From: Verrucomicrobiales bacterium
GTDB lineage: Bacteria > Verrucomicrobiota > Verrucomicrobiia > Verrucomicrobiales > DEV007
NCBI GenBank assembly: GCA_029213195.1
Contig: JARGNI010000045.1
Location: 1 to 33,835, forward strand
Direction: 5' to 3'
Length of the DNA: 33,835 nucleotides
Below the pieces are notes generated by a model, which had not been told where the DNA came from, did not search any database, and saw only the letters and a list, made by a program, of their open reading frames with translations. This document shows positions 2,402 through 21,929 of this stretch, in pieces (the first letter of the stretch is position 1; every line of letters begins with the position of its first letter). Both the position numbers and the translations under genes were made by a program.

Positions 2402-4834
2402 ATGGCCACAACACGTACTTACATTAGAACCAGTGACCTCAATACCACTGACTTTGCCTGTGGCCCTGACGGGCTGACGGTCATCGACAAGCGTGTTATC
2501 GAGGGTGCTGGAGATCCAGTCAATCCACCCAACTCGATCGACCAGGAGGCGGCTAACGACACCCCTACAATCTACTACGACACCGACGATCAGACGCGAG
2601 TCTGGACGTGGGATGTCTCCACTACCACCTGGATCCTATCCACAGGCGCCGTGGCAGCAGGTAACACCTCGATAGTCACTGGTGTCGCTGCAGCAGCAGC
2701 CACCGCTCCGATCGCTGATGAGTACGTGCAGCATAACGATGGGACGGGCACGCTAGTCCAGCACCTTCGTGGGTTAGGGGCAGTCACCAACACCCAGGAT
2801 CCGTTCGTATTCGACTCGGTCAACCGGACGCTTCAGATCCCCGCCATCGACGACCCGGTCAACTTCGCCCCAGCTATCGCTGGCGCACCTACTGACGCAG
2901 AGGCTCTGGCAGCGGTTCCAGCCGGATCGAACCCCGGCACGCTCATCTGGACAGAAGGGACCGTCGATAACCCTGACTTCGTTTGGCAGCTGCAGACGAA
3001 TGGCACTGTTCTCCGTATTGAGGAGACGGGTGCCGGGAACACGTCAGCCGTCGCTGGTATCGCGGCAGCGGCTGTCACCTCTGAACTCGTCACCGAGTAT
3101 GTCCAGCATAATGCCGGCAACGGGACGCTGTCTGAATTCCTCCGTGGTTTGGCCAATGTGACCAACCTGCAGACGCCATTCGCCTTCGACTCGGCACTAC
3201 GGACTTTGAACGTCCCGGTCATCAACGTACCGGTCAACTTCGCCCCAAGTGGCAATCTGGCGCGGCTAGACGCTCTGGCGCAGATAGCGGTTGGCACGTC
3301 CAACCCTGGGACGATCATCTGGTCTGGCGGAACTGTAAAGAATCCTGACTACGCCTGGATCGTCCAAGCTGACGGATCCGTTGTCCGTGTCGAGACGCCT
3401 ACGTGCTGTCCGGATCCACCGATCAACTTCACTCCAGCCGGTGCGGTGCCAACAGACGCTGAAGGCCTAGCGGCCCTAGCGGGCGCTGAGATTGGCACCA
3501 TCTCATGGACCGGCGGGACAGCAGAGAACCCGGACTACGTTTGGCGGCTTGAGTCTGACGGAACAGCAACCAGGATCGAAGGTCCTGGCGGAGCCGAGGG
3601 GCTAGCCCACATCGGCGGAACCCTCGACGCAGGCGTGGAGCAAGCGGACATCCAGATCGTCGCACCGACAGTGGAAGGCCGGCCTTGGCAGCTTGGCTTG
3701 CCCTGGATAGATGTTACCTACGATCGTAATACTGCCGCCTTATGGGGGAACCCAACAGCATCCGGACCACGGTCTATTGCTATTGGAACCGTCTCTGTGG
3801 CATCCGCTGACAACACTACCGTTGTGGGTGGTTCAGGTAACTCTGCTACTGCAGACAGAGCTGCCGTTTTCTCCGGTCAAGACAACGTCGCTTCTGGCGG
3901 ACGTGCTACTATTGTGGGGGGTTTCGCTAATACGGCATCTGGAGCCCGCTCCTTCGTCGCCAGTGGCGCAAACAACATCGCAGACTCAACAGACTCAACC
4001 GTCCTTGGCGGTAGCGCCAACACGGCGACAGGCAGCTTTGGAACAGTTCTAGGTGGAACTACTAATACTGCTACATCATCCGTGGTCTACGGCTCTAACA
4101 ACACCGCTATTGCGGGGTCAAACCTCGGCTCGATCATCGGCGGATCCACGAACTCCGGAACTGGTCAGTTCTACGGTATCTTCGGTGGTAACGCTCACAC
4201 CCTAGCGTCCGATAGTGCTGGTATTCTCGCAGGAACCGGGCACAACGTAACTACTAGTCCAACAAGCGGAATCGTTGCTGGAGGCGCTAATACGATGACC
4301 GGTTCAACCTCCGGATTCATTGGCGCTGGTGACAACAACTCCGTCCTATCTAACCGGGGATCTGTCGTAGGCGGAACAACCAACACGGCAAGCGGAGGTG
4401 ATTCGACTGTTATCGGATCATCTAACTCGACGGCAAGCGGAGCGGTTTCTGGAGTCTTCAATGGTATCGGCTCAACAGCTTCTGGGGCTGAATCTCAGGC
4501 ATTCGGACCAAATGCAACTGCCTCGCACATCGGAGCCAAGGTCTTCGCCGCAGGGATCGTAGGTCCGGTAGCTAGTCAGTTCGATAATGAGATTGTTCTT
4601 GCGACTGACTACTCAGACCCAGCCGTAACCGGGGGTCACCTCGATGGCGGTATCACTGCCATGGTCGGATTGCAACCGCTCCGTATCGACGGGACTACAC
4701 ACAACGAGGCACTCGGTGCGGCTGATCCACCTATCTACGCCACGGGCGTTCAATTCTTCGTTCGTCACGTTGGTGGCATAGCCAAGCTCTACGTCATGGA
4801 TGGTGCAGGTGTCGTCACCCAGCTTACTCCTTAA
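2402..4834 (+). CDS. Receptor-binding tail fibre with YadA-type head repeats
   Basis: 810 residues. The N-terminal half holds two copies of one module (about residues 87-160 and 213-285, sharing GNTS, EYVQHN, LRGL and PVNFAP) and three copies of a second (PGT(L/I)IW..GT..NPD(F/Y).W, near 170-208, 290-330 and 345-392). From about 455 to 715 runs a long left-handed beta-roll repeat of the form xxGGxxNxAxGxxS (for example STVLGGSANTATGSFGTVLG), the head repeat of trimeric autotransporter adhesins (YadA/Hep_Hag). The adhesin's outer-membrane anchor barrel is absent; the protein ends in a compact domain with FFVRHVGGIAKLYVMDG. I infer a trimeric host-binding fibre. The repeat region seems richer in A/T-ending codons than its flanks, hinting at acquisition. 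Confidence 0.8.
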   Translation: MATTRTYIRTSDLNTTDFACGPDGLTVIDKRVIEGAGDPVNPPNSIDQEAANDTPTIYYDTDDQTRVWTWDVSTTTWILSTGAVAAGNTSIVTGVAAAAATAPIADEYVQHNDGTGTLVQHLRGLGAVTNTQDPFVFDSVNRTLQIPAIDDPVNFAPAIAGAPTDAEALAAVPAGSNPGTLIWTEGTVDNPDFVWQLQTNGTVLRIEETGAGNTSAVAGIAAAAVTSELVTEYVQHNAGNGTLSEFLRGLANVTNLQTPFAFDSALRTLNVPVINVPVNFAPSGNLARLDALAQIAVGTSNPGTIIWSGGTVKNPDYAWIVQADGSVVRVETPTCCPDPPINFTPAGAVPTDAEGLAALAGAEIGTISWTGGTAENPDYVWRLESDGTATRIEGPGGAEGLAHIGGTLDAGVEQADIQIVAPTVEGRPWQLGLPWIDVTYDRNTAALWGNPTASGPRSIAIGTVSVASADNTTVVGGSGNSATADRAAVFSGQDNVASGGRATIVGGFANTASGARSFVASGANNIADSTDSTVLGGSANTATGSFGTVLGGTTNTATSSVVYGSNNTAIAGSNLGSIIGGSTNSGTGQFYGIFGGNAHTLASDSAGILAGTGHNVTTSPTSGIVAGGANTMTGSTSGFIGAGDNNSVLSNRGSVVGGTTNTASGGDSTVIGSSNSTASGAVSGVFNGIGSTASGAESQAFGPNATASHIGAKVFAAGIVGPVASQFDNEIVLATDYSDPAVTGGHLDGGITAMVGLQPLRIDGTTHNEALGAADPPIYATGVQFFVRHVGGIAKLYVMDGAGVVTQLTP

Positions 4835-11251: not shown

Positions 11252-12256
11252 ATGACCACCAAGCAACTCAAATCCTCGGCTACCGTGAAAACTGCGCGGC
11301 AGGAGATCGGTCGTGCTCTGAGCCAGACCAACCCTGAGGAGCAGTTGCGGGTGCTTAACCTTATCAGGCAGTGGGCCTTCTCGAATCAACGCCAGCTCGG
11401 CCTGGACCTCTCGATCAACTTCTGCGCCCCAGTCAGCTACTTCTGCACGGAGTGCAAACCGTGTGGTAATCAGCAGCTCGGGATCCGTCTCCCTGGCAAA
11501 TACGTTTCTCTAGAGGCTGCCGAATACAACGGTCAGCACGTGCCGACCCACTCAGCGTGGCGCCTACCCTACGATGGCGTCTCCGGCTGGGAAGGTGACA
11601 GTAGACTCAAACTCTTTGACAACGGCTTCAGAGCCTTGGAGACCGACTTCACGGATTGCCAACCCACAGCCCTACGCTACGTCGGCAAAGACTGCGAGAA
11701 GGCCAAGATGGTTGTAGTCGGCACAACCCTAGAAGATAGAGAAGAGGAGTTTGAGTATGAGATCAGCGGAGAAGCGCAAATCACCAACGAGGTTTTCAAG
11801 TCCATCTCTACGATCCGGTTCTGTGAGCCTCTCTCAGCAACTGTGGTTGTATCAGAGCCGGATGGCAAACAGCTTGCGCGCTTTCCCTGCGGAACGACCG
11901 CACTGCAGTTTAGAGAGTATCGAATCCTTTCCCCGGATTGTAACTGCAAGCCAAAGGTCCTCATCCTGACGGCCAACTGCTCCTTTGAGAACGTCTACGA
12001 CGATTGCGACATCGTCGAGTTTGGGTCACCGCTAGTCTGGCAGACCTTGGCACGATACATCCAACTCCTTAACAAGAGTGACAAGGATTCTAACGATCGT
12101 GCCAACCAGAAGGACTACCTTCAAACAGCAGTGAGCCTCATCACGGAGCAAGCAGCCGTGGAGAGTGGAGAGAGCACCGACTGGCGATTCCGACGAGCGC
12201 CAATCAAAAGCAAGAGGCTAGGTTCCTCCTACTGGGGGGCACGACGAGGACGATGA
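11252..12256 (+). CDS. Cys-rich structural protein, possible tail adaptor
   Basis: 334 residues. A helical N-terminus (residues 15-50, QEIGRALSQTNPEEQLRVL) leads into a cysteine cluster (C58, C65, C68, C71; YFCTECKPCG), then a beta-rich middle with further cysteines and a basic C-terminus (RFRRAPIKSKRLGSSYWG). The gene lies just before the ejectosome genes, where podoviruses encode adaptor or tail proteins, so such a role is plausible but unproven. The next gene begins inside its last codon (ATGA). Confidence 0.6.
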   Translation: MTTKQLKSSATVKTARQEIGRALSQTNPEEQLRVLNLIRQWAFSNQRQLGLDLSINFCAPVSYFCTECKPCGNQQLGIRLPGKYVSLEAAEYNGQHVPTHSAWRLPYDGVSGWEGDSRLKLFDNGFRALETDFTDCQPTALRYVGKDCEKAKMVVVGTTLEDREEEFEYEISGEAQITNEVFKSISTIRFCEPLSATVVVSEPDGKQLARFPCGTTALQFREYRILSPDCNCKPKVLILTANCSFENVYDDCDIVEFGSPLVWQTLARYIQLLNKSDKDSNDRANQKDYLQTAVSLITEQAAVESGESTDWRFRRAPIKSKRLGSSYWGARRGR

Positions 12257-12726
12257 CCGACCACGAGACACTATTCCTAGAAGAAGATAGCGTCATCCTA
12301 CTGAAGGATCTTGTAGAGCAGTTCGCAGCGGAGTCGACACTGCCAGAGATCTTCGACAGCCGGATGGATTTCGATGGGTTCTCGAGCGTCCTCAAGGACC
12401 TCATGACACGCGATCTGGCTGACGTCATCGTGACCATCGACGAGCAGATGATGCCCATCGGGGTCCTGATCTTCACGGCGACACCCAACCTCTTCACCGG
12501 AGACATCGAAGCCCGGGAGCTAGTCTGGTATGTGAAGCCCGAGTATCGAGGCACCCGGATCGCTTTCGATCTTTTCAAGGCTTTTGAGATCTCAGCAGTA
12601 GACGACTTCAACGCGAGGCTGTTGATCATGACACACCTAGAGGTGTCAATGCCAGAGAAACTCAAGAAAGTTTACGAGCGCAGGGGGTATCAACTCCTTG
12701 AAACCAACTACATGAAAAGAGTATAG
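12253..12726 (+). CDS. GNAT-like protein, T7 gp13-position internal virion protein
   Basis: 157 residues with a GNAT acetyltransferase-like layout: N-terminal helices, strands with DVIVTIDEQMMPIGVLIF, then ELVWYVKPEYRGTRIAFDLF (strand 4 and the acetyl-CoA pyrophosphate loop, R-G-T-R-I-A in place of the usual Q/RxxGxG/A), and KKVYERRGYQLLETNYMK at the end. It opens the block whose order matches T7 gp13-gp14-gp15-gp16, and T7 gp13 is a similarly sized GNAT-like protein. It could be a virion component, an acetyltransferase acting on a host target, or both. Confidence 0.7.
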   Translation: MTDHETLFLEEDSVILLKDLVEQFAAESTLPEIFDSRMDFDGFSSVLKDLMTRDLADVIVTIDEQMMPIGVLIFTATPNLFTGDIEARELVWYVKPEYRGTRIAFDLFKAFEISAVDDFNARLLIMTHLEVSMPEKLKKVYERRGYQLLETNYMKRV

Positions 12727-12730
12727 TGTT

Positions 12731-13618
12731 ATGGCAGTAGCAGCAGCAATCGGAGCCACCGCATCCTTGGCAGGATCGGCGATCTCAGCACGAGCACAGA
12801 AGAAGGCAGGCGAGGCTCAAGAGGATCGTCAGCTCGAAGGCATCGCTAGCCTTGGGCAGATCCGTCAGGACCTTGTCGACGAGTCTCTCGCCGGTACCCA
12901 CCTCGGTCGGTTCAGTGCTGAGGATATCTTCGGACGTCGTCAGCAAGAGATCGACTTGAACGACTCTATCAGACGGGCGAGTATCGACAACCTCGCTAAC
13001 CTCGGATTGAACCAGGAGTTGGTGCAACGTGCGAACACTGCGACGACGGCAGACTCAATCCGGCGGGCATCGCAGATTGATCCTAACTTCCGTCAGAACA
13101 TCAGAGGCTTGTCAGACCAAGCCAGACAGCTCATCCAGGGTGAGATCCCCCAGGACGTGGTTGAATCAATTACCCGGGCTCGTGCCGGGCAAGCAGCTGC
13201 TGGGGGTATCCCGGGGGCTCAGCGCAATGCTACGGCACGGGATCTGGGTCTGACATCTCTCGATCTGCAGCAGCAGGGGGCGAGTCTCTTCTCACAGGTC
13301 CAGTCTATCCGTGAGCAAGTTGACCCACTCAGCCGACAGATCGGATTGAACCAGTTGCTAGTCTCTCCATCTCAGCAACTCGAGATCGACATCGCTAACA
13401 ATGTTCTTAGAAACGCCCCAGATCCTGTGGCGCAAGGGCTGACGGCACTCAACTTCCAAGGGGCTCGTGAAGAACAGTTGGCCAAGTCTAATGTTAAAGT
13501 GCCAGTGGACAACGTGCTGGGCTCGTCACTCAGTGCTGCAGGTGGTGCTATCACGGGTCTATCAGAGAGTGGGTTCTTCTCAAGCTTCGGTAACAAAGAC
13601 AAAACCAAGATCGGCTAG
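12731..13618 (+). CDS. Internal virion protein, gp14-like
   Basis: 295 residues. The N-terminus is a small-residue hydrophobic helix (AVAAAIGATASLAGSAISA), suited to membrane insertion. Long Gln/Arg/Asp-rich helices follow, with two GLNQ-type repeats (LANLGLNQELVQRA, RQIGLNQLLVSP), and the end has Gly/Ser-rich GSSLSAAGGAITGL. A hydrophobic N-terminal helix plus a Gln-rich coiled body is characteristic of podovirus internal virion protein B (T7 gp14), which forms the outer-membrane part of the ejection channel. Position between the GNAT-like and transglycosylase genes supports this. Confidence 0.65.
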   Translation: MAVAAAIGATASLAGSAISARAQKKAGEAQEDRQLEGIASLGQIRQDLVDESLAGTHLGRFSAEDIFGRRQQEIDLNDSIRRASIDNLANLGLNQELVQRANTATTADSIRRASQIDPNFRQNIRGLSDQARQLIQGEIPQDVVESITRARAGQAAAGGIPGAQRNATARDLGLTSLDLQQQGASLFSQVQSIREQVDPLSRQIGLNQLLVSPSQQLEIDIANNVLRNAPDPVAQGLTALNFQGAREEQLAKSNVKVPVDNVLGSSLSAAGGAITGLSESGFFSSFGNKDKTKIG

Positions 13619-13632
13619 GAAGAAGAATAGTT

Positions 13633-15870
13633 ATGGCAATCGAACAACTCTTAGCAAACGCAAGCAGGCAGATCAATCTCGGTCAGGCCGCTGCTGCGTC
13701 CGCACAATCTGGTCTTGGGCTCGCCCAGAGTTTCAGGCAGACGGACGCCCAGCTTCTAGCAGAGCACCAGTCAAACGTTGCTACCAACTCGGCAGCGTTC
13801 GAGCAGGCGCTGCGTGCTGGCAAAGCCTTCGGTGTTGCTGAGCAGCAGAAGATCGACAACCAGATCAGGCAGGACAACGCCGCAGCAGCCTTGGCGAATG
13901 CCGGATTGGCACAGCGGGCACAGGCGCAGCGTTTCGAACTGGCTCAGCAGGAACGTCAGGACGAACGTCAGAACGCACAGGCGCAGGCTGAGATTCTGTC
14001 TGGCGGATCGGTCACGGACTTCGATATCTCTAGCGGTGACAGGTCTTCGACAGTCGACTTCAACATCGACACCTCACCCGTTAAAGGGTCTTTCAATGTC
14101 ACAGCTGACCAGCTGACACCACACCTCGGTGATGGTCTCAAGGGTCTAGCCCAGGACTTCGTCGATGCCGGTGCCAAATACGGATTGGATCCGCGTTTCC
14201 TCGCGTCCATCTCCAAGCTTGAAACTGCCAACGGCACATCCTCAGCGTTCCGTAATAGGAACAATGCTATGGGGATCAGCAACTCCAAGGGTCCTACCTC
14301 GCAGACATCACACCGTGATTCTATCTTTGCCCAGGCACGCAGCCTAGCAAAACCCAACGGCTACTACAAGAACGCCAAGACCATCTCTGAGATTGGTAAC
14401 ATCTACGCACCTCCAGGTGCTGGGAACGATCCGAACAACACGAACGGTGGCTGGGCACAGCACGTCGGCAAGTTCTATCAAGAGATGGTGGGTGCCAGTG
14501 GCGAAGCAGAGGGTCTGATGCCTCCCGAAGAACAGCAACGTCAGGCAGAGATGCAGGCGCAGGCGCAAGGCGACTACGCAGCTGAGACTGTGGCCGAGCC
14601 TCTGCAGCGCCCTGACATCGGTCCCGAAGAAGCGGCACCACCTCGCCCACCAGGGCAGAGCCCAGACGATAAAATCTACGATCCGGAATACATCCGGAGT
14701 CTCCCAGAGGGGGACCGTCGTCCTTTCCACACGGCAGCACTCAAGAGAGATGTGGATAACGCAGAGGGTATCATCAAGGCTGAGCAGGCGTTCGATGCAG
14801 CTGTCATGGATCTGACGGTCGCCGAGGATCGTCTTGACGATTTCAAGAAGCAGATCGGGGACGTCCCTCTAGGACAGCTCGGACCAGAGCAACGGCAGCA
14901 GCTGAGCGATCAAGGCCGACAGCTCAAGGATCAGGTGACCGCAGCACGCCGGGCACGGGCGACCGCCATGTCGGATCAAACCCGTCTCAAGCAGGAGCGG
15001 GCCTCTATCGAACACAACCTAGAAGCAGCTAGGCCGAAGTTTAAAGAGATGACCTCTGGACAGCAGACTCGTTACGAGGACCTGCTCAGTGCACGTGGGA
15101 ACATTCGGAACCTGAAGCGTCGTTTCAACGCTCTGAGCCTGGAGAACATCACGGCAAAGGCAACACCAGAGCAAGAAGATGCTAGTCTTTTTGGTGAGAT
15201 CACGGAAGGTCTATTCAACAAGGCTGTCGATAAGCTGAAGGACCTAGCAGGGGTCCAGGGCAATGATGGCGTGGGTGGTTCAGGTGCCAGCCGGGACCAT
15301 GACATCATCCACGGTGTGCTTCGGAAGTTTGCTGGAAAGATCATTCCAGACGACGAGGCTGCCGTGTTCCAAGCAGAGCTGAATGCCATGCTCGCATCTA
15401 TCGGTCGTGGTCTATTGGGTGAGAAGGGTGTCTTGACTGACAAGGACATCACCCGGATTAGAGCATCCATGCCTGACATCACCAACGGTCGTGAGCTTGG
15501 TAACATTATCTTGGGGACCTTGGACGCTACAGCCAATCGGCAAGCACAATCATTCCTCGGTAGTGTCGGCCCATCTTCTAGCATTGACACAGCATCCCTC
15601 AAGCAGAGCATGCTCGACGAGGGCTTCAACCTGGAAGAGATCTACGCAGACGACCTATTGAAGAAAGACGCCGCGGCAGCATTGAAAGCCCAGGACTCTT
15701 CAGAACGAGAGCAGGCAAGTCAGCCTGCTGCAGAGAGGGACACCCCTAAGGACCTGACCGAGAAACGCGCCAACTTCAAGAAGGGGCTCGTCGACGGGAA
15801 GGTCTACTCAGTGAGAGGGAAGGACGCAGTATGGCGGGCATCCGCCGGGCGATTCGTACCCGTTAAATAG
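13633..15870 (+). CDS. Internal virion protein with lytic transglycosylase domain (gp15 position)
   Basis: 745 residues. Residues 1-130 form an Ala/Gln-rich helical region (QRAQAQRFELAQQERQDERQ). About residues 160-290 form a lysozyme-like transglycosylase/glucosaminidase domain: AKYGLDPRFLASISKLETAN with catalytic-type Glu197, followed by SSAFRNRNNAMGIS. The rest is Pro-rich, then coiled coils (about 370-490) and an acidic helical C-terminal part. Its place is that of T7 gp15, but in T7 the transglycosylase is in gp16. I infer that it opens the peptidoglycan locally during DNA ejection. Confidence 0.7.
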   Translation: MAIEQLLANASRQINLGQAAAASAQSGLGLAQSFRQTDAQLLAEHQSNVATNSAAFEQALRAGKAFGVAEQQKIDNQIRQDNAAAALANAGLAQRAQAQRFELAQQERQDERQNAQAQAEILSGGSVTDFDISSGDRSSTVDFNIDTSPVKGSFNVTADQLTPHLGDGLKGLAQDFVDAGAKYGLDPRFLASISKLETANGTSSAFRNRNNAMGISNSKGPTSQTSHRDSIFAQARSLAKPNGYYKNAKTISEIGNIYAPPGAGNDPNNTNGGWAQHVGKFYQEMVGASGEAEGLMPPEEQQRQAEMQAQAQGDYAAETVAEPLQRPDIGPEEAAPPRPPGQSPDDKIYDPEYIRSLPEGDRRPFHTAALKRDVDNAEGIIKAEQAFDAAVMDLTVAEDRLDDFKKQIGDVPLGQLGPEQRQQLSDQGRQLKDQVTAARRARATAMSDQTRLKQERASIEHNLEAARPKFKEMTSGQQTRYEDLLSARGNIRNLKRRFNALSLENITAKATPEQEDASLFGEITEGLFNKAVDKLKDLAGVQGNDGVGGSGASRDHDIIHGVLRKFAGKIIPDDEAAVFQAELNAMLASIGRGLLGEKGVLTDKDITRIRASMPDITNGRELGNIILGTLDATANRQAQSFLGSVGPSSSIDTASLKQSMLDEGFNLEEIYADDLLKKDAAAALKAQDSSEREQASQPAAERDTPKDLTEKRANFKKGLVDGKVYSVRGKDAVWRASAGRFVPVK

Positions 15871-15872
15871 CT

Positions 15873-18800
15873 ATGCCATCACCACTATCAGCCGCACTCC
15901 CTGGTGCCGTCAGTGCCCTCTACGCTGAAGGCGAGGCACAACAGGACTTCCGTGAACTCGGTCAATCCCTGACACCACCAGAGGAGTTGAACGCTGATCT
16001 GGACGTAGGTCTGAGCCTAGAAGCGGATCCAGAACTGGAGAACCAGTCACCGTTCAGCAGTGGCCTTGGCACACAGGAGCAGCTGACGCTGGAATCCCAG
16101 AAGGGTGTCGACCAGGTTCGCCAGCTGGCCGAACTGGAGATGAGACTTGGTTTCCGCTCCTCGTTCAATTTCGGCGTCAACAAGCTCACACTCACAACAT
16201 CTGAACAGGATCTAGACGACGCTGCCTTTCTAGAGGACACCGGTCTATCAATCGACGACCTGGATCCCAGCGAGTTCGACTCTATCTCAGAGCCCGGTTT
16301 CTCCCTCGACGATCTCACCGAAGATGATCTCAATGGCGGAGTTGTTGAGGTTGATCTCGCATCACGTTACGACGAGCGCCTCGCTAACAACGACCCGGAC
16401 CTGACGTTCGCTGAGTTCGCAGCACACGAGGAGCGCGAGGGCAAGAAGAGCGTTCTGGAGAAGGGCGGCGAAGCTGTCTCTGGGATCAAGGAGGGGTTCA
16501 GTGGCATGGTGAACGATTTACTTGTCGCAGGCTTCAGTGTTGCCGAGGTCGGTCCTAAGGAAGCTGCCGCTAGTTTCGGAGAGGCTGTCCTGGGGTGGGG
16601 TGCTAACACTGGTATGATGTGGGACGCAGCCACTGGCGGATTGACTAGCATATACGCTGGGGCCACAGAGGACGAACGCACGGCACAGATCATTCGCTAC
16701 CAGCGGAAGAAGGAAGAGCTGGCTAACAAACAGCAGATGTCACTCCGTGAGGGTGAGACCTTCCTGGGATCTGCAGCAGTTGCTCTAGACTCGGCACTCA
16801 CAGGTAGGAACGATGGCGACCGAGCGGCCACCATCCAGCGCAAGGCTGAGTTCCTGGTCAACGACGGATTGCAGAAGGGTCTCCAGTTTGTCCCGGACAT
16901 CATTCTCCCTGGTACCGTCGGTAAAGGTGTGGCCCAAGTGGGTATCAAATCCGCTACGTTGCCCGGCAAGGCGGCTGTCACCTGGATGGGTGGTAAGGGT
17001 GTGAAGGCTGCCCAGATGGTCGACAAGACCGTGGCCAACGCTATCAACAAGGCGACCCCCGTAGTCGGCAAGGCTCTAGACAAGACGGCGAAGGCATCGG
17101 GCAAGGCTGTTTCGAAGACTGGCAAGCTGGCATCACTGGCTGTCGGTGCAAGCTCAGGTGACGTGGCGACCATCGTCGGTGGTCAGCTCATCGCCCCTGC
17201 AGTCGGAGCAACTGTGAAGGGTGGTCTCACCGCAGGCACTGCCGCACTGCGCCACAGCTACCGAGGCGCACGAGGTGTGACACGCTTCGGCCGGAAGTCT
17301 GCCGCGCCATTCGCTCACGCTATCAAGGGCAAGCTGGAGTATGGCACGGGGTTCCGCACCACGTATGCGAAGATCGCAGCCGATGCTTCACAGCCTGCCT
17401 GGACGCGCACCGTAGCACGTCAGGCCGACTTCCTGTCTGGCTTTGCGTCCACCCGGGTCGCGGCAGCTGCGACAGCTGGTGCTGTCACGGAGGCTCTACA
17501 AGAGGGTATTCAAGAATCTCTCACCATCGGATCGACCTTCAAAGACATCGGTAGAGGTGCTGGAGGTGGTGCTGCATTCGGTGGCCCCATGGGTGCGGTT
17601 GGTGGTATCGCAGGGGCTCGGAACTTGGATGAGCATTTCCAAGACCTCGACGCCCTGGACTACCGGGACCGTGTGATTGAACGCGGAGACGATCCGGCAA
17701 TTTTCGACGGATTGGACCAGGACACCCGGCGAGGCATCGCAGCCATGCAGGGTGTTGCTCTCGACTCTTCGAACATCCGGCTCGTCTCGCAGTCCGAGTT
17801 CGCTCGGCTGACAGATCAAGACCAGGGTATCGCCACCCAGGATGGAGCCTTCATCCAGGACAACGGTGACGTGCTGGTCAACATGAACCAAGTGGGGTTC
17901 GACAATCCGAAGAGGCTTCTCTCAACCATCGGTCACGAGATCGGACATGCCGCCTACCTCAACCTGGACGACTCAGTCAAAGACCAGTGGCGCGACCTCG
18001 CGCACCGTGAGTATGGCGAGGACGTAGTGGAGAAGTTCCGGCAGGACTACGGTAGCGCCATCGGTAAAGAGGTGACGACCGACGTCGCCCTGGACGAGAT
18101 GTTCGCCGAGCACTTCCTAGGACACGGCACCACCGGCAAGCGTCTTCTGGATAAGAAACGGAAGCTGGGCGCCATCGGTGTAGGTGGCCAACGCACCCTT
18201 CGCCGGATTCAAGACGGGGTGCTCAAGAAGATGGGCATCCACGGCTCTGGTGTGGATCCCAACACCGATCTTCTCGAGTTCACGCCCTACAAGGATAACG
18301 CCGACGTTGAGAAGTTCATTAACGGATCGCTACGGGATCTCGGGGCACCCCTCCCCAAGGTCGACATGCCGAAGGTCAAGGCTGGGCCAATCAACGTAGA
18401 TGATCCTGGCATTGACGCACTGCAGAGAGCGCTAGACGCTGAGGCTGGCGACGTCATCACCCTGGCGAACGACAAGTCTGTGTTCCCTGTTAGGGTAAAC
18501 GGTGACAATGTTAAGTATGTCGACATGGATGAGGCGACGGACGCAGTCATGTCCGAGGAGCCAACCACGGATCCAGACGAGCAACGGATCCTAGAGGAAC
18601 TCCAGAAGGTGAAGCAAGGCGAGCCGTCTGCGTTCGACCACCTCGTAGAGGAAGCACCTGCGAAAGCATTTGAAACCGGGGACGTCACAGACGCGGACAT
18701 CCAAGCAGCGATTGAGCCGGGTGTCGCTTTCGGTAAGGAGATCGAGGACACGATCAAGTCGAACATCGAGACCGGTGGTGTCGAGGCGATCCCCTTCCAG

Positions 18801-21800
18801 TACCAGAAGACACCGGACGGACCAGTAGAATCCAAGATCGTCTTCCCGTTCAAGGTGAAGGCCAACAAAGCAGGTGACCTGACCGTGACCGGTCTCGACT
18901 CGGACGCCTTCAAAGCATACCTGGAACGCGAAGGTGTACCGGATGGTTTCCGGGACAAGGATCACCTCAGGGACGTGGCCCGACGCATGGCGACCGACCC
19001 GGAGAGCGTGACCGCTCAAGAGAAAGCGGATCTATTTGCATCAAACCAGGACTTCCTGCGGTCTTACAGATTTGATAAAGTTGTAGGTTTGAGTAGAAAA
19101 AGTGGGAAAAGTGGAGTAACGTCATCAATATCTAATGAACCAACACGACCAAGACCGAGAGCTTTTAGCCCAGCACGAGACGCAGAGCGACAAGCCAACA
19201 TCGACCCAGGAAATCTTAGCGATGCCCTCGGACGTGTTGCAGGCCCGAAGGCGGCTACAGATTTCCTCGCAGATGAAGGCTCTAGCCAATCTGAGCCCGG
19301 GAGTCCTGAAGCCGTCAAAGCAGCAGCCAAGGAAGTCAGAACCATCAAGCGACTCGCCCCCAAGCTAGTCCCCGCAGTCCGTGCACGTGCCAAACAAGCA
19401 GCCACCTCCAACCAGGGAGGCGCCGAACACGAGGTCCATCTGGATCCGGCGTCTGACCGTGTCGTCAAGGTATGGCGTCATTGGGACGGAGGCGGCGACA
19501 CACCCCGGAGTTACATTGACCGGCACACGACACTCAATCGGTTCTTCAACTCAGACAACCGGATCGAAGGCGTGCTACCCGATGGTGGTATCGTCACCTC
19601 AGCACCTTTCGCAGACGCCGCGGACATCAACAACCCACACCCAACCCCGGATCAAATCCGTGAATACATGTGGGAGCACGGCTTCAGAGGAGAGGGAGAC
19701 ATCTACCGCCGAGGTAAGGTCACCATCTACGACACGAAGCCAGAGAACTTTGTTCAGACTCAAGACGGCACGGTTATCATCGACGCACTCGTCGACACCG
19801 ACGACGTGGCACCAGAGATTCAGCAGGAGCAGGACGACCTCTTCAGAGATGAGGACGAATTCGGCGACGACCCCTTTGCAGACACACTAACAGACGACCC
19901 ATTATTTAGCCCTAATAGAGATGCCACCAATGCAATCACCGAAGTCGACGCCACAGACCAAACAGCAAATGTTCGAACGGGGGCAGAAGGAGTCCAAGGG
20001 CTTCGTGACCCTGCTCAAGACCCTCAAAGCACAGGGCAAGAAGGACCTATACAACTCGGCAATCAAGCTGAAGTACCGCTCGGGCTACAAGCCTCAGACG
20101 GAACAGGAAGCAGCCCTGACCTCGGAGCAGCTGTCCAGCCTCCGCTTAAAGGAGTCGCAGTCGAGGCAGGAGACACCGCTGCCATTACCAAGTTCAGAGA
20201 CGGGCTTGTAGCCACTAACGCGACCCACAAGTTTGGGTTTGCGGTGGAGGACAAGGGCCCTTACTTCTACGCCAACCCAGAGACCCGACTCTTCACATCA
20301 GGAGGGGCGGGAGTCGCCGTGACCCCTGATGGGGATATGGTCTCTGTGTTCAAGCAGCCGGGCACGGAAGGCAACGTGCGTGAGCTGATCGACATGGCGA
20401 TCGAGGCAGGCGCAGACCGCCTGGATAACTATGACATCGGCGGATTCCTCCCGGGGTTCTATGCCAAGCACGGATTCAAACAGGTGGCACGGGTGAAGTT
20501 CAATCGGGAGTTCGCACCAGAAGCGCCCGCCGACCAGAGTCCTGACATCGCGCTTATGGTCCACGACCCGGATGGGGTTGTGCAGGCCGACGATACCCTC
20601 TTCGAAGATTACGAGGACGCAGAGGCCGCACAGATGGCAGCTGTTGCACAGGTCCGTGCCGCACAAGCGCAAGTCCAGGAAACCCACACCCCTGAATTCG
20701 AGGTGGCTCCGCTCCCCGTGGAGATCACTAACAAGAAGAAGAACACCGCCAAGACTATCCCGTATGCCCTGACACAGTCGCCAGAGTCTACCACCTTCCA
20801 AGGAGTGGTCGACGATCCGACGCTGCCAGACTACAAGAAGAAGTTCCCATACAAGGTCACTGGTGAGGGGCAGAAGCGCATCAACCGGCAGATCGAGTCC
20901 GGCTACGTCGACGAGCTGAAGCGGCGTCTTGTGAACGAATACAACGAGGTCGTGACGGACCCAGCGGTGGCAGGTGGTCAGGGCTGGTATTCACGGATGC
21001 GTAAAGCCTTGAAGGAGGTCCTGGGTGACCGGGCCGAGATCTTCTCCCAGCTACTGGGTGCCACCAGCGCAAAGACGCCAGTCGATACCAATTTCATCTT
21101 CACCGTGGACGCCTTCGACCGATACGAGTCGGGCGCACTCGACGAAACCATGGCTAACTACGTGGAAGCACGCGCCATGACAAAGCCTCAACTGGTCAAG
21201 GCGCTCAACGACAAGGGTATCACGCACACGACCCCTGAGGACCCCAAGACAGAGCCCAAGCTGATCACTGAGAAGACTCAGATGCCGACGCTGCTCGTCT
21301 CCTATGACCAGCACGTGAAGACCATCCTCCCACGCCAGTCCAACGGCAAGAAGTACGGAGCGAACTCTTCTGCTGTGGCCAAGGTACTTGCAGGTGTGTG
21401 GCTTACGGAGGCCACGGCTCCGAAGACACCCAACTTCGCTGGGAACCTCACGGGGCGCACGCTAGCGGCCACCATCGACGTGTGGGCCGCACGTACACTA
21501 CGCCGGCTGACTCACGGCAGCGCAGACACCCCTTGGCGGATCCAAGCCAAGTCGGAGGGTGCTGTCAGCAATGAGGACTTCGCCTTTGGGCAGATCGTCT
21601 TTGAAAGAGCTGCCGCTGAGCTGGGTATCAATCCGGATGATCTCCAGGCGGTAGCGTGGTTCGGGGAGAAGGCTCGCTACCGTAACGAGGGCATCACCGG
21701 AGCCGTAGGCGAGGAACTGTCATCCTTTGACACTGCGTTCGACGCGATCTTCAGAGACCCGGACAATCCTGCCTCAGCTAGTGAGGGGCAACGACGGATT

Positions 21801-21929
21801 GCACTTCAGAAGAAACTCAAACAAATCCAGAAACTAAGGAAATCCCATGCCACAGACACCACCACTGCCGACAAGATCAAGTCCCTCCGACGAGACATTG
21901 AAAGACTTGTCGCTTCAAGACCTTCGTAA
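15873..21929 (+). CDS. Giant polyvalent ejected virion protein (gp16 position)
   Basis: 2018 residues in one frame. Visible in order: an acidic N-terminus (1-190); Gly/Ala-rich amphipathic segments (about 205-580) suited to membrane channel formation; a zinc metallopeptidase-like domain with HEIGH (688-692) and a candidate third ligand in DEMFAEHF (741-748); a WYL-like beta segment (about 973-1075, IPFQYQK ... YRFDKVVGL); a kinase-like domain with K1199, DTKPEN (1287-1292) and Asp1304; a GNAT-like domain (about 1450-1570, ending FLPGFYAKHGFKQVARV); and a C-terminal phage domain (about 1700-1960, GWYSRMRKAL, LLGATSAKTPVDTNF, TIDVWAARTLRRL, QAVAWFGEKARY). Such mixtures define phage polyvalent proteins, delivered into the cell with the DNA. 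It fits the gp16 slot but is much longer than T7 gp16 (about 1318 residues). Confidence 0.75.
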   Translation: MPSPLSAALPGAVSALYAEGEAQQDFRELGQSLTPPEELNADLDVGLSLEADPELENQSPFSSGLGTQEQLTLESQKGVDQVRQLAELEMRLGFRSSFNFGVNKLTLTTSEQDLDDAAFLEDTGLSIDDLDPSEFDSISEPGFSLDDLTEDDLNGGVVEVDLASRYDERLANNDPDLTFAEFAAHEEREGKKSVLEKGGEAVSGIKEGFSGMVNDLLVAGFSVAEVGPKEAAASFGEAVLGWGANTGMMWDAATGGLTSIYAGATEDERTAQIIRYQRKKEELANKQQMSLREGETFLGSAAVALDSALTGRNDGDRAATIQRKAEFLVNDGLQKGLQFVPDIILPGTVGKGVAQVGIKSATLPGKAAVTWMGGKGVKAAQMVDKTVANAINKATPVVGKALDKTAKASGKAVSKTGKLASLAVGASSGDVATIVGGQLIAPAVGATVKGGLTAGTAALRHSYRGARGVTRFGRKSAAPFAHAIKGKLEYGTGFRTTYAKIAADASQPAWTRTVARQADFLSGFASTRVAAAATAGAVTEALQEGIQESLTIGSTFKDIGRGAGGGAAFGGPMGAVGGIAGARNLDEHFQDLDALDYRDRVIERGDDPAIFDGLDQDTRRGIAAMQGVALDSSNIRLVSQSEFARLTDQDQGIATQDGAFIQDNGDVLVNMNQVGFDNPKRLLSTIGHEIGHAAYLNLDDSVKDQWRDLAHREYGEDVVEKFRQDYGSAIGKEVTTDVALDEMFAEHFLGHGTTGKRLLDKKRKLGAIGVGGQRTLRRIQDGVLKKMGIHGSGVDPNTDLLEFTPYKDNADVEKFINGSLRDLGAPLPKVDMPKVKAGPINVDDPGIDALQRALDAEAGDVITLANDKSVFPVRVNGDNVKYVDMDEATDAVMSEEPTTDPDEQRILEELQKVKQGEPSAFDHLVEEAPAKAFETGDVTDADIQAAIEPGVAFGKEIEDTIKSNIETGGVEAIPFQYQKTPDGPVESKIVFPFKVKANKAGDLTVTGLDSDAFKAYLEREGVPDGFRDKDHLRDVARRMATDPESVTAQEKADLFASNQDFLRSYRFDKVVGLSRKSGKSGVTSSISNEPTRPRPRAFSPARDAERQANIDPGNLSDALGRVAGPKAATDFLADEGSSQSEPGSPEAVKAAAKEVRTIKRLAPKLVPAVRARAKQAATSNQGGAEHEVHLDPASDRVVKVWRHWDGGGDTPRSYIDRHTTLNRFFNSDNRIEGVLPDGGIVTSAPFADAADINNPHPTPDQIREYMWEHGFRGEGDIYRRGKVTIYDTKPENFVQTQDGTVIIDALVDTDDVAPEIQQEQDDLFRDEDEFGDDPFADTLTDDPLFSPNRDATNAITEVDATDQTANVRTGAEGVQGLRDPAQDPQSTGQEGPIQLGNQAEVPLGLQASDGTGSSPDLGAAVQPPLKGVAVEAGDTAAITKFRDGLVATNATHKFGFAVEDKGPYFYANPETRLFTSGGAGVAVTPDGDMVSVFKQPGTEGNVRELIDMAIEAGADRLDNYDIGGFLPGFYAKHGFKQVARVKFNREFAPEAPADQSPDIALMVHDPDGVVQADDTLFEDYEDAEAAQMAAVAQVRAAQAQVQETHTPEFEVAPLPVEITNKKKNTAKTIPYALTQSPESTTFQGVVDDPTLPDYKKKFPYKVTGEGQKRINRQIESGYVDELKRRLVNEYNEVVTDPAVAGGQGWYSRMRKALKEVLGDRAEIFSQLLGATSAKTPVDTNFIFTVDAFDRYESGALDETMANYVEARAMTKPQLVKALNDKGITHTTPEDPKTEPKLITEKTQMPTLLVSYDQHVKTILPRQSNGKKYGANSSAVAKVLAGVWLTEATAPKTPNFAGNLTGRTLAATIDVWAARTLRRLTHGSADTPWRIQAKSEGAVSNEDFAFGQIVFERAAAELGINPDDLQAVAWFGEKARYRNEGITGAVGEELSSFDTAFDAIFRDPDNPASASEGQRRIALQKKLKQIQKLRKSHATDTTTADKIKSLRRDIERLVASRPS

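Follow-up and report, generated by a model that had tools for sequence, protein, structure and literature searches.

P0001, a protein of 2018 residues encoded on the 33,835-nucleotide contig JARGNI010000045.1 of a Verrucomicrobiales bacterium assembly (GCA_029213195.1; this whole stretch is referred to below as the window), is a polyvalent protein located at the ejection-protein position of a podovirus-like gene cassette, an assignment for which its domain content, the order of the genes and the related giant proteins found in a like place elsewhere give good support. The first-pass annotation of this DNA had proposed such a protein, and the single frame that it described was recovered as an uninterrupted ATG-to-stop frame at exactly 15873–21929; in its own genome, a draft assembly of 115 contigs, P0001 occurred once, on the contig that corresponds exactly to the window. 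At least two biochemically unrelated enzyme domains are present (GNAT, kinase-like, and DUF7178/glycosylase-like), and we consider it rather probable that P0001 acts as a pilot protein for a podovirus-like phage, packaged in the virion and carrying enzymes into the cell. To the extent of our searches, two results are new: the assignment of DUF7178 as glycosylase-like, and the frequency of this domain in giants at the ejection position. The features of P0001 are as follows.

15873–21929, + strand: P0001, polyvalent giant of 2018 residues (open reading frame and translation)
15873–17732, + strand: residues 1–620, acidic N-terminus followed by an Ala/Gly-rich region with five hydrophobic segments; presumed ejection/membrane part
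16089–16172, + strand: residues 73–100, in-frame 28-residue piece resembling a chromosomal polysaccharide-deacetylase-like N-terminal motif (82% identity at best)
17700–18242, + strand: residues 610–790, zincin-like metallopeptidase region (iterated profile, alignment A7, weak model)
19398–19793, + strand: residues 1176–1307, Kinase-PolyVal-like domain (Pfam PF18762 E 0.0054, alignment, relative L141)
20160–20570, + strand: residues 1430–1566, GNAT-like acetyltransferase domain (phrog_2563 E 3.4e-9)
20913–21728, + strand: residues 1681–1952, HhH-GPD DNA-glycosylase-like core of the C-terminal DUF7178 region (profile, model, alignment)

The C-terminal DUF7178 domain

The widespread phage domain foreseen at the C-terminus was confirmed, its likeness to glycosylases having gone unseen: DUF7178 was the only Pfam match in the whole of P0001 (E 2.8e-8; 2.1e-10 on the piece), and phrog_3842 matched residues 1839–1935. 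Relatives of the domain were confirmed at no fewer than 255 places in IMG/VR (at least that number, partly redundant), and the 80 C-terminal loci discussed below are the best of the 255 confirmed among 600 candidates. A search of 74 genomes of the bacterial family detected DUF7178 in P0001's own genome only.

Filtering the 80 loci for redundancy left 54, from which L171 was dropped; alignment A6, made from the other 53 and the window, yielded a confident model of the domain with a predicted local distance difference test score (pLDDT) of 90.4 and a predicted template modelling score of 0.88. In the structural comparison VIA-align 2, the first four rows were 8-oxoguanine DNA glycosylase/lyases with sequence identities of 9–12%: 3knt (Z 9.3, root-mean-square deviation (rmsd) 3.8, 181 residues), 3n0u (Z 8.9, rmsd 4.2, 184 residues), 3fhf (Z 8.8, rmsd 4.6, 188 residues) and 4ejy (Z 7.2, rmsd 3.5, 157 residues). 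Lower rows included AGOG 1xqo (5.9, 4.9, 179) and MutY 3g0q (5.2, 4.6, 164), while the next unrelated row had a Z of 6.5 over 57 residues; the matches covered model residues 77–353. A search of BFVD gave six matches at E <= 0.001, all of them phage proteins with no stated function except for one labelled ART-PolyVal. When the A6 profile was compared with PDB sequences, the best hit (E 0.38) was to TPR-type designs and was taken as chance.

Two residues, K1851 and D1869, were present in 54 of 54 A6 rows and always 18 apart, a spacing equal to that in the endonuclease III of the same genome (itself matching solved endonuclease III at 1e-44); of the two patterns by which the A6 rows had been fetched, neither contained the Lys and one contained the Asp. 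Drawing on the roles of the catalytic residues in endonuclease III and OGG, we take K1851 and D1869 to be a candidate catalytic pair. Comparison with a profile of 15 HhH-GPD proteins from related genomes gave a P of 2e-4 with the Lys and Asp in register (three other profiles scored 0.08, 0.44 and 0.66), and placed the segment TEATAPKTP opposite the LPGVG-type hairpin, the glycines of which are missing. From the model and these comparisons, the DUF7178 region is judged to have a glycosylase-like fold with putative catalytic activity; the confident model, the glycosylase match and the invariant Lys–Asp pair together suggest that a base-excision-type module seems to be built into many phage proteins that are probably ejected. 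Literature searches for 'DUF7178' or for phage-DNA-glycosylase phrases returned no matches, most subscription journals lying outside their reach.

A rather unlikely, though not negligible, alternative is that the module serves as a non-catalytic DNA anchor of glycosylase fold, such that the giant and the packaged genome leave together. Its occurrence in giants with differing other cargo, and its location in several giants at the extreme C-terminal end, would suit that role, as would its charge: it alone among the stretches of P0001 lacks a net negative value (+5, the other seven ranging from -6 to -20). The retention of both candidate catalytic residues in every A6 row, the Lys outside the fetch patterns, argues for an enzyme instead, as do the annotation of some mycobacteriophage relatives as glycosylases, and the existence of gp77 of Mycobacterium phage Rockstar, a stand-alone form with no gene annotated as structural in the stretch inspected around it.

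Acetyltransferase-, kinase- and metallopeptidase-like regions

The GNAT-like domain of the first-pass annotation was upheld and is firmly predicted, the phrog_2563 match spanning residues 1478–1544 with the support of alignment A2. This region has relatives among stand-alone phage proteins annotated as acetyltransferases by their depositors, and also at the C-terminal ends of minor capsid proteins from Microbacterium phage Caron (L019, SEA_CARON_4) and a methanogen virus (L021), so that the module rides on other virion proteins too. Complete frames were available for 45 of the 80 GNAT loci (the best 80 of 115), of which 37 were of at least 1500 residues, 4 of 600–1499 and 4 shorter. A mixed alignment (A3) was discarded, its GNAT rows having aligned onto the C-terminal domain.

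A single-sequence search with residues 1165–1330 found no relatives of the kinase-like region among the fetched viral open reading frames. A profile built from this region of P0001 and its matches in related genomes found one such frame among the fetched viral loci, on IMG/VR contig 3300042924_005664 (L141; E 8.6e-10), and it is through this relative, with the same domain order, that the predicted kinase domain is well supported. Within 95 related genomes there were 17 matching places in 15, ten of them in open frames of 233–295 residues. An alignment of eight sequences kept Glu, Lys, Asp, Asn and Asp (the last Asp gap-shifted in one alignment), at the places where the family has a Glu ahead of strand 2, the ATP-site Lys, the catalytic Asp/Asn and the metal Asp, and three solo kinase-like proteins compared with Pfam gave Kinase-PolyVal values of 3e-5, 0.036 and none. 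Free-standing or neighbouring Kinase-PolyVal-like proteins were also observed in genomes of the same order (L004, with two adjacent frames, L006, L007 and L008), and recall the Verrucomicrobium cassettes described by Iyer et al. (PMC5512222).

A zincin peptidase in P0001 is likely, though weakly supported. The motif HEIGH lies at residues 688–692, and a downstream DEMFAE contains E742, a candidate third ligand; the metallopeptidase motif noted earlier is thereby confirmed. The fold model is weak, and Pfam MPTase gave no match over threshold with the whole protein or pieces of it. The iterated profile produced 14 domain hits in giant phage frames, and in nine uncut giants which also carry the C-terminal domain (the near-identical L132 and L133 included) the match begins at residues 509–573, compared with ~610 in P0001. 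In a comparison of P0001 with PDB sequences the best hit, suggestive only, was an IrrE-type zinc hydrolase (E 0.4, residues 654–758). No matches to the metallopeptidase and kinase pieces were obtained by tblastn against 50,697 phage records. Profile searches with the three models named in the first-pass annotation differ in outcome: a match for DUF7178, a score below the cut-off for Kinase-PolyVal, and none for MPTase. The WYL-like segment likewise proposed was rejected, residues 830–1090 giving only DprA_WH (E 3.7) and no relatives among the fetched frames.

Related giants in environmental viruses

Complete carrier frames, measured from stop to stop like those of the GNAT loci, were available for 48 of the 80 C-terminal loci: 35 were of at least 1500 residues, 13 of 600–1499 and none shorter. 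Upstream genes could be tallied at 35 loci out of 80, the rest being cut or having fewer than 1500 bases upstream, and at 31 of these 35 the upstream frame ended within 60 base pairs of the giant. One locus (L126) presented the order tail protein (phrog_376), internal virion protein (phrog_418), a protein of ~575 residues, and a giant with DUF7178 (the giant gave no match among PDB sequences); at another (L143) two neighbours were virion structural proteins according to PHROGs. It is unlikely that the giant is a late product which stays in the producing cell, there to act in assembly, processing or the exclusion of other phages. Such a role would accommodate the fact that the claim of ejection rests on position, but sits poorly with the close spacing at those 31 loci and with the identity of the PHROG-named neighbours, which were tail, internal virion, virion structural or endolysin proteins (5 of 10 neighbours in one scan having no match).

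One close counterpart, L141, resembles P0001 in its order of HExxH, Kinase-PolyVal, GNAT and C-terminal domain: HETNH at residues 741–745 of a cut frame, Kinase-PolyVal at residues 1373–1531 (Pfam, 1e-15, 58.5 bits), a GNAT domain of a family other than that of P0001 at residues 1887–1950 (5e-6), and the C-terminal domain at residues 2243–2656 with 42% identity to P0001. It differs in its length of at least 2870 residues, in an N-terminus that could not be aligned, and in having ~200 residues beyond the C-terminal domain.

A second counterpart is the giant XLZ15523.1 of Limnohabitans phage DC33 (PQ492659.1, L025), which occupies a like place in the order major head protein, tail protein, 203-residue protein, endolysin, 3125-residue giant, tail fibre, and which shares the GNAT family phrog_2563 with P0001 (blastp 9e-13). 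Unlike P0001, it extends to 3125 residues and has ART-PolyVal and LPD22 in place of the kinase; its counterpart of the glycosylase-like domain scores weakly (blastp E 0.10), has Lys and Asp 19 apart in alignment A1, and precedes the GNAT domain. Of the 52 DC33 proteins, 15 were compared with the 28 other window frames, and no match reached E <= 0.01. DC33 is recorded as belonging to the Inoviridae, a taxonomy that looks wrong given its tailed-phage genes for a major head protein, tail proteins and an endolysin.

Further giants differ in their cargo, which comprises ART, methyltransferase-like or L5 gp82-like domains. On the sequence evidence of carrier sizes, upstream genes, the order shared with L141, and the domains swapped elsewhere, the giant layout is common and modular in environmental phages. 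In the variable middle of the giant, L137 has a methyltransferase-like domain (residues 1387–1507) and L148 an L5 gp82-like one (residues 1627–1722).

The N-terminal region

All five hydrophobic segments of P0001 lie within residues 208–538, and of 2000 shuffled sequences only 5 kept all such segments inside the first 600 residues. The shuffled sequences averaged 7.4 segments, more than the five of P0001, so that the clustering of the segments is unusual and their number is not. Among eight relatives, the segments were exclusively N-terminal in three (L130, L136, L151) and mostly so in L137, L146 and L148. A single-sequence search with residues 130–610 found no relatives among the fetched viral frames.

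The 28-residue piece at residues 73–100, which lies within the acidic N-terminus, has 22 chromosomal counterparts in 18 of 287 other genomes (50–82% identity), the same 28 residues being matched at 21 of the 22 places and whole-protein comparison giving the same bounds in three cases of three. At the DNA level the closest of seven copies compared was identical at 64 of 84 positions, and a search of P0001's own genome with one source protein retrieved the window piece only. The source proteins may be described as 'polysaccharide deacetylase', a reading of the proteins themselves made without a library match.

The upstream cassette, contig and probable host

P0001 is encoded among virion genes, directly after a gene of peptidoglycan-hydrolase type, most of its other neighbours being unrecognised, and by position and size only it forms the last and largest gene of a three-gene cassette of the gp14–gp15–gp16 kind. 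The relevant neighbours, together with a probable fibre gene located further away, are as follows.

12253–12726, + strand: separate GNAT gene (157 residues), directly before the cassette (phrog_1249 E 1.7e-14; Acetyltransf_7 E 2.9e-4, below cut-off)
12731–13618, + strand: 295-residue protein with a hydrophobic N-terminus, gp14 position
13633–15870, + strand: 745-residue protein with a glucosaminidase/endolysin-type domain at residues ~167–262, gp15 position
2402–4834: 810-residue protein, probably a fibre (YadA-head-like and ice-binding beta-roll-like repeats, Pfam)

The hydrolase-type domain of the 745-residue protein was matched at 1.6e-8 by PHROGs and at 1.1e-5, below cut-off, by Pfam; the 295-residue protein had no family match in either library. 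The next genes, on the minus strand, encode a helicase, a PolA-type DNA polymerase and an exonuclease (PHROGs). Twenty other window frames were scanned with PHROGs and ten with Pfam, and 14 of the 20 had no PHROG match. Scans of viral contigs with P0001, the 745-residue protein and the DNA polymerase gave no confirmed relatives.

A second phage contig in the bin (C80; L295, G000:C80; 7119 bases) carries terminase-like and probable portal and capsid genes. Its candidacy as the missing head module was ruled out: it has a G+C content of 37%, and its ends share no overlap as long as 15 bases. The endonuclease III of the genome was most similar to those of Verrucomicrobiia (78–79% identity at best), with other phyla from 75%, in a comparison confined to one gene and to the matches listed. 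This comparison gave no support to a planctomycetal origin of the bin. The verrucomicrobial bin is thus the likely host of the phage, a link which falls short of proof since the bin also holds another phage contig; a probable verrucomicrobial host fits the kinase distribution reported in PMC5512222.

The notion that the frame is an artefact of assembly or binning, or a prophage remnant, is highly improbable. The division of the draft genome into 115 contigs, one of them C80, a phage contig with a very different G+C content, gives it some footing; it is opposed by the uninterrupted frame, by family matches in several of its parts, and by the same domain order in the separately assembled L141.

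Proposed mode of action

P0001 would comprise, in order, an N-terminal part of ~600 residues concerned with assembly, membrane contact and ejection, a zincin, a truncated kinase, a GNAT domain and a glycosylase-like C-terminal end. As gene order suggests, it would be packed in the head together with the 295- and 745-residue proteins and, on infection, would exit via the tail while the 745-residue protein opened the peptidoglycan. The peptidase may then cleave the polypeptide and free the enzymes, PMC5512222 having proposed for polyvalent proteins that such processing occurs either in the head or in the host. The kinase and GNAT domains could thereupon modify host proteins, and the C-terminal module could excise bases that are damaged or modified, the simplest target being the phage genome as it first enters. 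For this last step the predicted fold and the candidate catalytic pair are supported by computation.

A number of results weigh against this interpretation. Mostly helical models can reach a Z of 9.3 without kinship; Foldseek returned nothing from the PDB at E <= 0.001 for either the C-terminal or the metallopeptidase model; the HhH-GPD profile comparison carried a probability of 46%; and PF00730 gave no match at E <= 10 on pieces of P0001, for which reason the C-terminal region is assigned to the same fold and not to PF00730. The metallopeptidase model had a pLDDT of 66.8, and most of its top structural rows were zincins with a best Z of 4.9 (rmsd 5.6, 124 residues); some relatives have HDxxH instead of HExxH, and the profile was marginal in L141 (E 0.0055). 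On the P0001 piece PF18762 scored 17.2 bits, below the gathering cut-off of 27, so that the kinase-like domain noted earlier is retained, through PF18762 and L141, under the sole label 'Kinase-PolyVal-like', and a Gln of the family in the last N-lobe strand is Ala in P0001. Residues 1–620 had no Pfam or PHROG match and the N-terminal 600 residues match nothing, while in L126 and L134 hydrophobic segments occur beyond the N-terminal part. No terminase, portal or capsid gene was recognised in the scanned window frames, and it is from gene position that packaging and ejection of P0001 are inferred.

Some of these results, namely the kinase score below cut-off with its absent Gln and the HDxxH variants among relatives, would be expected if the enzyme domains were relics or spacers in a pilot protein of which the N-terminus alone matters. 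We regard that as improbable, given that the kinase (Lys, Asp, Asn, Asp) and the C-terminal domain both retain candidate catalytic residues, that HExxH and E742 are intact in P0001, and that L141 combines strong kinase and GNAT scores with the same order.

Extended from P0001 as an enzyme-carrying pilot protein to its relatives, the proposal becomes that environmental podovirus-like phages of a large class deliver into the cell, along with their genome, a DNA glycosylase/apurinic-apyrimidinic lyase, DUF7178, within the pilot protein, a generalisation offered tentatively and held with less conviction than the role of P0001 itself. If true, base excision on phage or host DNA would take place before any phage gene is expressed, either as first-aid repair of a damaged virion genome or in stripping protective modified bases from host DNA. 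DNA base excision would thereby be tied to proteins that phages probably inject, and a testable function is offered for a frequent phage Pfam domain of unknown function. The layout that recurs, in which an N-terminal part is followed by a peptidase, by interchangeable enzymes and by a DNA-acting end, likewise makes processing and the order of cargo release testable.

Comparison with known systems

P0001 had been described as replacing T7 gp16. This is borne out in terms of position, P0001 like gp16 being the largest gene and the last in a three-gene cassette; homology to T7 gp16 was not found with Pfam or PHROGs. It is further unlike gp16 in having no N-terminal transglycosylase match in residues 1–620, a hydrolase-type domain residing in the preceding gene instead, and in having hydrophobic segments that are N-terminal, with none near the C-terminus, and extra enzyme domains. 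According to PMC8954989, proteins of the gp15 and gp16 types differ in size and in the domains they contain, and a lysozyme is borne on the gp15-type protein of K1E and K1-5, an arrangement which the 745-residue neighbour of P0001 fits.

The fusion of enzymatic cargo to an ejected protein, put forward in the first-pass annotation, is not novel as such: Iyer et al. 2017 (PMC5512222) already describe polyvalent proteins of phages and conjugative elements which are predicted to be virion-packaged and include N4-type virion RNA polymerases. The domain types listed there include MPTase, kinase and GNAT, the kinase coming mainly from (pro)phages of the Verrucomicrobia-Chlamydia group and Bacteroidetes. 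A word search of the main text encountered neither 'glycosylase' nor 'base excision', and 'HhH' once, in another context. P0001 resembles these polyvalent proteins in combining several unrelated enzyme domains in one polypeptide encoded adjoining virion genes, and differs from them in its C-terminal module of the glycosylase kind.

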